A DNA stretch of 8,910 nt from Aquificota bacterium (GTDB lineage: Bacteria; Aquificota; Aquificia; Aquificales; Hydrogenothermaceae). The stretch is taken from NCBI GenBank assembly GCA_013153635.1, contig JAADDZ010000001.1:1-8910 (forward strand). The letters run 5' to 3'. The notes beneath the pieces were generated by a model. The model searched no databases. It was not told where the DNA came from and was given only the letters and a program-made list of their open reading frames with translations. Made by a program: the position numbers and the translations under genes. This document shows positions 354-5,479 of this stretch, piece after piece; position 1 is the stretch's first letter, and each line of letters opens with the position of its first letter.

Positions 354-668
354 TTATTTTATGTATTCTTTTAGATAGTCTGTTATTTCTTTGTTGTATG
401 GTATGTCTACCCAGTATATCCCGTCTTCGTGTTCTATTCTTATGTAGGGGGCTTTTTTTCCTTTTATTATTTTTACTGTGGTTAGTCCTTTGGAGAAGTA
501 CCATTCTATTTTTTCGAATGGTGCGTCCATATATATTGTGAATCCTCCGGGTCTTTTTTGTATTTTTTTTATGGTTATTGGTGTTTTGTTTATGATGTCT
601 TCTTCTAACCATTCGTCTGTTAATATGTCTACTGCGATTCCTTTTATGTTGAATTTTTTTTCTTCCAT
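354..668 (-). CDS. Conserved-looking hypothetical protein, 104 aa
   Basis: I do not recognise this protein. It is short, charged and soluble-looking, with no signal peptide and no membrane span. Alternating hydrophobic and charged stretches and several aromatic residues (the FTIYMDAPF and EWYF region, then YWVDIPY) suggest a small mostly-beta or alpha/beta domain. No cysteine is present and no catalytic motif is evident. Its ATG (668-666) shares one base with the TAA of the DapF-like gene (670-668), a TAATG junction typical of translational coupling. It is therefore the third gene of the HepT-like/DapF-like unit, and a role tied to those two is plausible. Its stop lies six bases from the opposing tRNA-Glu, so the end of this operon faces the tRNA transcript head-on. 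Coding is likely from the junction and the intact frame; function is unknown. Confidence 0.8.
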   Translation of the reverse strand: MEEKKFNIKGIAVDILTDEWLEEDIINKTPITIKKIQKRPGGFTIYMDAPFEKIEWYFSKGLTTVKIIKGKKAPYIRIEHEDGIYWVDIPYNKEITDYLKEYIK

Positions 669-1531
669 TATTTAAACCTCTGTGTTAGTTCTTCGCTAAG
701 GGTTCCTTTACATATTTCTTGGACTTCTCCTGTCATTTTTATGTTCCAGTTTTTGTCTATCTGTATTTTTAGTTCTCCTCCGGGCATTATTATTTTTATT
801 TTTCTTTCTGTTAATCCTTTCTTTGCTAGTATTGATGCTACTGCACATGAGGAGCTTCCTGAAGCTAATGTGTATCCTGCTCCTCTTTCCCATATTCTTA
901 TTTCTGCTTTGTTTTTGTTTAGTGGTTTTACGAATTGGACGTTTGTTTTGTTTGGGAAGATTGGGTGATTTTCTATTAGTCTGCCGTATTTTTTTACTTC
1001 TGTTTCGTCTATTTTGTCTACTATGATTACACAGTGGGGATTTCCAATGGATACGCAGTTTATTTCGAATTCTTTGTCGTTTATTTTTATTTTTTCTCCG
1101 ATACATTCTTCTTTTTCTATGCTGACTGGTATTTTTCTTGATGAGAATTCTGCTTTTCCCATTTCTACTGTTATGATTTTTGCTTTTTTGTGGTGTTCTT
1201 TTTCTATTTTTGCTTTTACTATTCCTCCTTTGGTTTCTATTGTGAATTCTTTTTTGTGTGTGTATTTGTAGTCGTATAGAAATTTTGAGAATATTCTTAT
1301 TCCGTTTCCACTTTTTTCTGCTTCTGAACCGTCTGGATTGAATATTTTGACGCCGAAGTCTGCTTTTTGAGATGGTGTCTTTAGTAGAATTCCATCTGAA
1401 CCTATTCCGTAGTGGGTGTTGCATATTGTTTTTATTGCGTCTTTTGATAGTTTAAAGTCTATGTTTTTGCTGTCTAGTATTATATATTCGTTTCCTAGTC
1501 CATGGGATTTGACGAAGAAGTTTTTTTCCAT
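668..1531 (-). CDS. DapF-fold epimerase homologue with both catalytic cysteines replaced by serine
   Basis: The 287-aa product has the length and layout of diaminopimelate epimerase (DapF), the cofactor-independent enzyme that interconverts LL- and meso-diaminopimelate for lysine and peptidoglycan synthesis. Visible family motifs are GLGNEYIILD (11-20), HYGIGSDG (40-47), FNPDGSEAEKSGNGIR (64-79), GNPHC (163-167), NKTNVQF (194-200) and ERGAGYTLASGSSSCA (215-230). Substrate-contact residues are kept (Asn14, Asn65, Asn164, Asn197, Glu215, Arg216). The two thiols that act as acid and base in DapF (Cys73 and Cys217 in E. coli) are Ser74 and Ser224 here. It may be a paralogue acting on another amino acid, a proton-exchange or dehydratase-like enzyme, or a binding protein. 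ATG start, preceded by AGGAG inside the end of the upstream gene, two bases after whose stop it begins. Fold call is firm; assignment as the working dapF is not, so I give no symbol. Confidence 0.88.
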   Translation of the reverse strand: MEKNFFVKSHGLGNEYIILDSKNIDFKLSKDAIKTICNTHYGIGSDGILLKTPSQKADFGVKIFNPDGSEAEKSGNGIRIFSKFLYDYKYTHKKEFTIETKGGIVKAKIEKEHHKKAKIITVEMGKAEFSSRKIPVSIEKEECIGEKIKINDKEFEINCVSIGNPHCVIIVDKIDETEVKKYGRLIENHPIFPNKTNVQFVKPLNKNKAEIRIWERGAGYTLASGSSSCAVASILAKKGLTERKIKIIMPGGELKIQIDKNWNIKMTGEVQEICKGTLSEELTQRFK

Positions 1532-1532
1532 T

Positions 1533-2399
1533 TTATTTCTCCTTTTTTCCGTAGACTGATTTTATTATTTCTTTTGTAAAGTTTATAAATGCTGGGAGGT
1601 CTTGTTTTAGGGTGTTGTAGAATTTTTTGGTGTCTATTTTTTGTGTGGGGTCTATTAGTTTTTTTCTCATGTCTGTTATTTTTTGTAATTTTTCTGCTGT
1701 TTCTTTTGAGATTATTTTGTGTTGGGCTAGGTTTTGAAAGCATTTCTTGGAGGGGGGTATTTTCGCAGACCTTGTTATATGTCTGCATAGCCATAGGGCG
1801 GAATCTATAAGAACTATGGAAAAGTATCTGGTTCTGTCTATTGCATATGGACTTTTTATAAATTCTTCTTGTGGGTATTTTGTAAATGTTTCTATTTTTT
1901 TTATGGTGTTTTTAATTGTTTTTATCTGTTGTATTGTTTTTATTATGTTTACTGGTATTGCGAGTTTGGGTTCTTTTTGTTTTATTTCTTTTACGATTTT
2001 TGCTAGTTCTTTGATGAAGGGTTCGTAGAGTTCATCTGTTATTTGTTTTAGGGTTGTGTATAGTTGTTTTTCAGAGTAGCTAAAGTTTTTTTCTAGTAGT
2101 TTGGTTTTTGTGTTAACAAGGTCTTCGAGGGCTCTGTTTATTCTTTCGGAGAATATTTTTTCTTCTGTTAGTTTTTTTATACAGTTTTCTTTTGGTTTTT
2201 CTTTTGTTATGTTTGTGATAAGGTGACAGGCTATTTTTTCTAGTTCTTCGTAAGCTATTATTAGGTAATATTTTGCTCTATCTGGATACATTGGGGTTTT
2301 TATGAATTCTGTTAGTCCTCTGTCTATTATCTGTTTTGTTTTTTTTAGGGTTGTTTTAAATTTTGTGGCGTGTTCGTTTAGGAATTTTGTGTCTATCAA
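1533..2399 (-). CDS. Tandem HepT/DUF86-like protein lacking the RNase motif
   Basis: The 288-aa all-helical protein is an internal duplication. EFIKTP...DRAKYY (31-45) recurs as EFIKSP...DRTRYF (179-193), a period of 148 residues, and KQLYTTLKQ (111-119) matches KKFYNTLKQ (258-266). Each half (about 17-137 and 165-285) follows the HepT/DUF86 pattern: an EFI-x-P entry, a helix with DR, then xxIACHLI or xxLCRHIT, a 'L...kii' turn and a closing helix. HepT is the RNase toxin, or AMPylated partner, of MntA nucleotidyltransferases, and its active site is R-X4-6-H. Here the second copy has RKKLID (245-250) with no histidine, and the first copy has lost the arginine as well. RNase activity is therefore unlikely, and no MntA-like gene is adjacent. 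Start is TTG at 2399-2397 with AGGAG eight bases upstream. First gene of the leftward unit. The homology is remote and inferred by eye. Confidence 0.72.
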   Translation of the reverse strand: MIDTKFLNEHATKFKTTLKKTKQIIDRGLTEFIKTPMYPDRAKYYLIIAYEELEKIACHLITNITKEKPKENCIKKLTEEKIFSERINRALEDLVNTKTKLLEKNFSYSEKQLYTTLKQITDELYEPFIKELAKIVKEIKQKEPKLAIPVNIIKTIQQIKTIKNTIKKIETFTKYPQEEFIKSPYAIDRTRYFSIVLIDSALWLCRHITRSAKIPPSKKCFQNLAQHKIISKETAEKLQKITDMRKKLIDPTQKIDTKKFYNTLKQDLPAFINFTKEIIKSVYGKKEK

Positions 2400-5039: not shown

Positions 5040-5375
5040 CTATTCTAAGGCTTTTAGTATTATATTGATTCTGTTCTCTATTTTGTTTTTTTCTTTTTCT
5101 TCTTTGAAGAAATCTTTTATTTTTTGTTTATCTATGTTTATGTTTTCTATAGATTGACCTTTTAGGTTTTCACATATTAGGTCAGCTAGGGCTATGAGTT
5201 TTTTGCATCTGTTGGAGGATTTATATTTTGCGTCTATGATTTTTCCGTTTTCTATTTTTGCATAACATTCTATAGAATGTACGCCTTCTTTATTTTTTCC
5301 TAGGGTTTGGTAGTTAGGTGGTGGTTCTTCTACTTTGTTTTTTAGTCCTTGCTTTATGTAATCAGATACTTTCAT
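5040..5375 (-). CDS. Small NifU/IscU-N-like protein (degenerate iron-sulfur scaffold?)
   Basis: The 111-aa product starts with a linker (1-30) and continues with a stretch resembling the NifU/IscU scaffold fold: strand HSIECYAKIENGKIIDAKYKS (33-53), then NRCKKLIALADLICENLKGQ (55-74), then IENI, and a last helix NRINIILKALE (101-111). This recalls IscU: a strand, the Cys turn before a helix ending in KGK-T-hEE, and a C-terminal helix. IscU holds its cluster with three cysteines. Here Cys37 and Cys57 could correspond to two, Cys68 is extra, and the third (before the last helix) is missing. It could be a scaffold variant, an Fe-S or sulfur carrier, or only a fold relative. Start ATG 5375 is chosen because AAGGAG sits about six bases upstream; extending to 5459 would add a hydrophobic leader without a ribosome site. 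Monocistronic and divergent from pspA. Confidence 0.6.
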   Translation of the reverse strand: MKVSDYIKQGLKNKVEEPPPNYQTLGKNKEGVHSIECYAKIENGKIIDAKYKSSNRCKKLIALADLICENLKGQSIENINIDKQKIKDFFKEEKEKNKIENRINIILKALE

Positions 5376-5406
5376 ATGACGCTCCTTATCTATGGTTTTT
5401 CTTATA

Positions 5407-5447
5407 ATTATATTAGATTTTAGTAAGTTTAAAAAAAGTATTAAAAT
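5407..5447. promoter_or_regulatory. Divergent promoter region between the NifU-like gene and pspA
   Basis: Leftward: a perfect TATAAT (5412 to 5407) with a poor T-rich -35 17 bp upstream, start near 5400, 25 bases before the start codon. Rightward: TAAAAT (5442-5447) with TTTAGT (5419-5424) as a weak -35 at 17 bp. The leftward one is the more convincing. Confidence 0.35.
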
Positions 5448-5479
5448 ATTTAGACACAAATCTGTATACGAGGAGATAG

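Follow-up and report, generated by a model that had tools for sequence, protein, structure and literature searches.

A thiol-free Ser/Ser clade of DapF homologues as the probable diaminopimelate epimerase of Hydrogenothermaceae and of other bacterial lineages

The window, i.e., the whole stretch of 8,910 nucleotides that was analysed, is the entire contig 28 of a 1.69 Mb genome assembly (96% complete; labelled G000 here) of a bacterium of the family Hydrogenothermaceae (Aquificota). The features considered in this study are the following:

354..668, minus strand: an open reading frame (ORF) of 104 amino acids, of no known family, whose start codon overlaps the dapF stop codon by one base
668..1531, minus strand: a dapF-like gene of 287 amino acids, a putative Ser/Ser-type diaminopimelate (DAP) epimerase according to profile scores, alignment and an AF2 model
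860..862, minus strand: the Ser224 codon TCA, at the second catalytic Cys position, in GYTLA-S-GSSS
1310..1312, minus strand: the Ser74 codon AGT, at the first catalytic Cys position, in EAEK-S-GNG
1313..1315, minus strand: the Lys73 codon AAA, lysine being present in 89/91 Ser/Ser and 0/35 Cys/Cys homologues; a proposed partner of Ser74
1533..2399, minus strand: the gene directly upstream of dapF, on the same strand after a 1-base gap, with a C-terminal HepT-like domain

The product of the upstream gene has 288 amino acids, with the HepT-like RNase domain located in the C-terminal half. No gene for an MNT antitoxin that might be its partner was recognised in the window. The HepT-like gene adjoins dapF only in loci of the same genus (L031 and L024/L102), the 104-aa ORF is conserved in one genome of this genus, and the arrangement of all three genes is likewise confined to same-genus loci. 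The HepT-like gene is not thought to be part of the function of the dapF enzyme. Elsewhere in the window, positions 5040-5459 of the minus strand encode a short NifU_N/SufU-like protein, recognised by a weak match only.

The ORF running from 1531 to 668 is intact, starts with ATG and encodes a full-length DapF homologue. It scored 256.6 bits against the NCBIfam equivalog model of DapF (TIGR00652), the cut-off of which is 114.65, and 206 bits against PF01678. The expectation of the earlier note that the gene would be annotated as dapF automatically is in line with these scores. Membership in the proline racemase superfamily (PF05544, 20.2 bits) or in the PhzF family (PF02567, 20.4 bits) was not indicated, as both scores fall below the cut-off of 27.

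The HMMER alignment to the solved DapF structures placed Ser74 (EKSGNG) and Ser224 (TLASGSSS) exactly in the columns of the two catalytic cysteines, which bears out the substitution of both thiols read earlier from the sequence alone. The AF2 model of the protein had a pLDDT of 95.3, and the solved structures closest to this predicted fold were DapFs (8qzy: Z 37.7, rmsd 1.6 over 272 residues). In the model, Ser74 and Ser224 immediately precede helices 75-87 and 225-237, and the catalytic cysteines of DapF are likewise located at helix N-termini (PMC12039745). The protein is a homologue that probably works like DapF but stands outside the classical type defined by two catalytic cysteines.

To place these substitutions in a family context, 91 Ser/Ser proteins were compared with 35 Cys/Cys homologues. 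Asn14, Asn65, Asn197, Glu215 and Arg216 were invariant in both groups, as the earlier note had supposed in describing a pocket that is otherwise intact; Asn76, a further residue that binds DAP, is invariant as well. Asn164, also listed there, is asparagine in 89/91 Ser/Ser proteins and variable in the Cys/Cys ones. Ser74 is found in all 91 Ser/Ser proteins. Its codons belong to both classes (AGY in 66, TCN in 25). The tree implies at least two changes between these classes, during which the serine was retained. Besides Lys73, the Ser/Ser proteins are marked by Gln199 and Ser227 (89/91 each; absent or rare in Cys/Cys), by Pro66 and by Ile80, a position occupied by Cys in all Cys/Cys proteins.

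In a mixture-model tree calculated after removal of the catalytic columns, 48 Ser/Ser proteins and the single Cys/Ser protein grouped apart from 29 Cys/Cys proteins (support 100/100), in a non-random sample in which most Ser/Ser rows came from a search with a Ser/Ser query. The Ser/Ser proteins thus form a single clade, a point that the earlier note had suggested checking. The Cys/Ser protein within this clade (L052, Bacteroidales Hm464_bin65, positions 5-850) has Asn at the position of Lys73 and is apparently the sole DapF of its genome.

A second dapF with both cysteines, which the earlier note had suggested looking for, was found neither in the G000 assembly, where the protein of the window is the only one matching PF01678, nor elsewhere among the Hydrogenothermaceae. 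In this family, 23 of the 25 genomes contain a PF01678 match, one protein each, and all 23 proteins are Ser/Ser; the two genomes with no match are 78% and 69% complete. Several of the genomes with a single DapF are assembled in 1-5 contigs with 99-100% completeness. The occurrence of the two serines in all 23 family genomes having the gene, as well as in loci from about 15 phyla, shows that they are real and not due to a sequencing error or chance.

G000 carries DapB, DapD (358 bits, cut-off 204), DapE (429 bits, cut-off 304) and LysA (552.6 bits), and its MurE has the DAP-type DNPR motif. DapB, DapD and DapE lead to LL-DAP, while LysA and the DAP-type MurE consume meso-DAP; the steps before and after the epimerisation are therefore present together with no other epimerase of the DapF family. 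A bypass by DAP dehydrogenase was rejected, as no match over the cut-off was found in G000 and, among the genomes searched, only G047 had one. Judged from gene content, epimerisation is the only DAP step of this organism that has no conventional enzyme, and the Ser/Ser protein is its one candidate. Since cultured Hydrogenothermaceae are chemolithoautotrophs growing in mineral medium, members of this family must make both lysine and DAP.

One could suppose that no epimerase is needed at all, either because MurE and LysA accept LL-DAP or because lysine is made by a different route, the Ser/Ser protein then being a relic. Nothing in our data speaks for this directly, and LL-DAP cell walls do occur in Streptomyces. 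We regard it as highly improbable: G000 has the full DAP route including LysA, an enzyme acting on the D-centre, a DAP dehydrogenase is confined to the one genome named above, and a relic would hardly keep its serines invariant across 91 proteins.

The proteins read from the two sister families were all Cys/Cys and of a very different sequence type, and the first Cys was confirmed in two further sister-family proteins. The nearest relatives of the Hydrogenothermaceae gene outside the family are mostly from Bacteroidota. We conclude that dapF of the Hydrogenothermaceae was probably replaced, likely by transfer. Meanwhile, DapL of either type gave no match over the cut-off in the Hydrogenothermaceae genomes tested, which use DapD/DapE instead. 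The sister families (G025-G040) combine DapL with a Cys/Cys DapF, whereas the checked Hydrogenothermaceae (G000-G024) combine DapD/DapE with a Ser/Ser DapF, indicating that the exchange within the DAP route was not limited to a single step.

When one genome per species was scanned, 80 loci were obtained, and nearly all of the full-length ones were Ser/Ser, the exceptions being L110 and L111 (Cys/Cys) and L052 (Cys/Ser). The Ser/Ser loci come from about 15 phyla, namely Bacteroidota, Nitrospirota, Dadabacteria, Methylomirabilota, Rokubacteria, Gemmatimonadota, Planctomycetota, Cyanobacteriota, Chloroflexi, Armatimonadota, Bacillota, Dictyoglomota, Ignavibacteria, Latescibacteria and others, as named in record titles of mostly metagenome-assembled genomes, some of which are possibly mislabelled. 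No viral carriers were found in our search. Outside the Hydrogenothermaceae, a single PF01678 protein was present in 40 of 49 genomes (39 Ser/Ser and, in the genome of L052, one Cys/Ser), so that a Ser/Ser protein is the sole DapF in 39 of the 48 Ser/Ser genomes tested there. The other nine contain extra PF01678 copies, and the second copy read was Cys/Cys in each. Of the 78 genomes searched for LysA, 77 contained it, and matches to the MurE model occurred in all genomes; nearly all of the 39 genomes whose sole DapF is Ser/Ser have both enzymes.

In the Hydrogenothermaceae, dapF is not adjacent to other DAP genes, which counts against reading it as a DAP epimerase. In Bacteroidota, the Ser/Ser dapF lies less than 150 bases from lysA in eight loci, and in eleven its distance to dapL is at most about 1.4 kb; representative neighbours pass the LysA or DapL models. 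A DapL-type gene is found 31 bases from the Ser/Ser dapF in L067 (Chloroflexi) and 80 bases from it in L065 (Ignavibacteria; 666 bits, cut-off 585). A D-Ala-D-Ala ligase homologue is located nearby in L062, L068 and L070, confirmed by its model for L062. An apparent fusion in L050, a frame of 677 amino acids, was rejected as an open frame overlapping dapL on the opposite strand.

The earlier note had named a new substrate, proton exchange or a non-catalytic, ligand-binding role as possibilities. In a rival reading of this kind, the Ser/Ser protein would bind DAP or a related amino acid and catalyse another reaction, or none, and an unrelated enzyme would make meso-DAP. The replacement of Cys can indeed alter the reaction in the proline-racemase superfamily, as in a Ser/Thr dehydratase (PMC4113996), and in a related racemase, replacing a single Cys by Ser abolishes most of the activity (PMC11602996). 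Moreover, several members of one minority Ser/Ser subclade (L069, L073, L105, L100, L078, L095) coexist with a Cys/Cys DapF, in genomes of cyanobacteria, Psychromonas, Spirochaetes and Planctomycetes; the neighbours of L069, L073 and L105 had no common theme. However, the same hidden enzyme would be needed in about 15 phyla, each with the Ser/Ser protein as its only DapF, and the linkage to dapL and lysA would be left without explanation. With no other DapF in the genome and the pathway genes in place, we consider this alternative unlikely; a role other than DAP epimerisation is mainly conceivable for the minority subclade.

Because G000 has no second dapF but does have the genes for making LL-DAP and using meso-DAP, and because lysA and dapL lie near the Ser/Ser gene in other phyla, we infer that DAP would be epimerised here in the absence of thiols. 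The most probable reading (roughly 0.8) is that the protein encoded at 668-1531 is the working DAP epimerase of this organism, converting LL-DAP to meso-DAP, and belongs to an ancient thiol-free Ser/Ser clade of DapF. Its role as a DAP epimerase in vivo is well supported by inference, and the thiol-free chemistry is a proposal.

For this chemistry, the hydroxyls of Ser74 and Ser224, which occupy the same two helix N-termini as the cysteines, could serve as the acid and the base on opposite faces of the alpha-carbon. Compared with cysteine, serine is far less acidic, and it is a poor base. The retained His166 and Glu215 together with the clade-specific Lys73 might help to deprotonate one of the serines; Lys73 may activate Ser74 or be the base itself. 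A Cys/Cys DapF has no basic residue closer than 4 Å to its thiols, and the loop leading up to the first thiol bends around the substrate (PMC12039745); a lysine at position 73 is therefore a real change.

The second option for Lys73 amounts to a variant of the preferred explanation that differs in chemistry only: a DAP epimerase in which Lys73 is the first base, a Lys/Ser pair acts across the substrate, and Ser74 only positions the substrate or the lysine. It is consistent with the distribution of Lys73, which is missing from all Cys/Cys proteins and replaced by Asn in the Cys/Ser protein, with the course of the loop just described, and with the Lys/Ser pair of the PLP-dependent serine racemase (PMC8142540). 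Nevertheless, Ser74 has no exceptions, and both serines are retained in the two outlying proteins that have no Lys73; we hold this variant as a tentative possibility. These two (L197 of Streptomyces, NZ_CP108679.1; L199 of Agrobacterium vitis, NZ_AP023281.1) are distant, plasmid-encoded Ser/Ser DapF-like proteins, each adjoining a gene for a 2OG-Fe dioxygenase. L199, which is annotated as dapF, also passes the DapF model. They are possibly amino-acid epimerases of secondary-metabolite clusters.

According to the textbook, the removal of a proton with a pKa of ~29 with neither PLP nor metal is accomplished by a pair of cysteine thiol and thiolate, and DapF, an enzyme of cell-wall and lysine biosynthesis, is the model case. 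We think it rather probable that a cofactor-independent amino-acid epimerase with no thiol, in which a Ser/Ser (or Lys/Ser) pair is activated by a lysine specific to the clade, supplies all meso-DAP in lineages of about 15 bacterial phyla, in which case the two-thiol rule would not be general. DAP epimerisation can probably also proceed by a route other than the two-thiol chemistry. If this is true, a natural and widely used DapF with neither cysteine would force a revised explanation of the catalysis and offer a clean system for comparison. No published description of a Ser/Ser DapF was found in the literature searched, the coverage of which was incomplete, and such enzymes are apparently both widespread and undescribed. 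For annotation, this means that automatic pipelines give the name dapF to the Ser/Ser protein in spite of the missing catalytic cysteines; for inhibitors, the thiol-directed aziridino-DAP is not expected to act equally on Ser/Ser enzymes.

Among known systems, the active Ser/Cys 4-hydroxyproline 2-epimerase B9JQV3 of the proline-racemase superfamily (PMC4113996) likewise has Ser in place of one catalytic Cys within the same fold and still epimerises, but it keeps one thiol and belongs to another family with another substrate. The Ser/Thr trans-3-hydroxyproline dehydratase B9K4G4 (PMC4113996) also has no Cys at either catalytic position; it differs in being a dehydratase, in having Thr as the second residue and, again, in family. 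The O-ureidoserine racemase DcsC (7vdy) and the histidine racemases CntK and HisR resemble the Ser/Ser protein in their DapF-like fold and two-base design, whereas they are Cys/Cys (in part from PMC11602996), act on other substrates and are less similar in sequence. The closest counterpart is DapF itself (EC 5.1.1.7; TIGR00652, PF01678). The Ser/Ser protein shares with it the fold, the length, the GNG and ERG motifs and the substrate contacts Asn14, Asn65, Asn197, Glu215 and Arg216, and fills the same gap in the pathway. It differs from DapF in the serines that replace both cysteines, in the clade-specific Lys73, Pro66, Gln199 and Ser227, and in forming a separate clade with 100/100 support.
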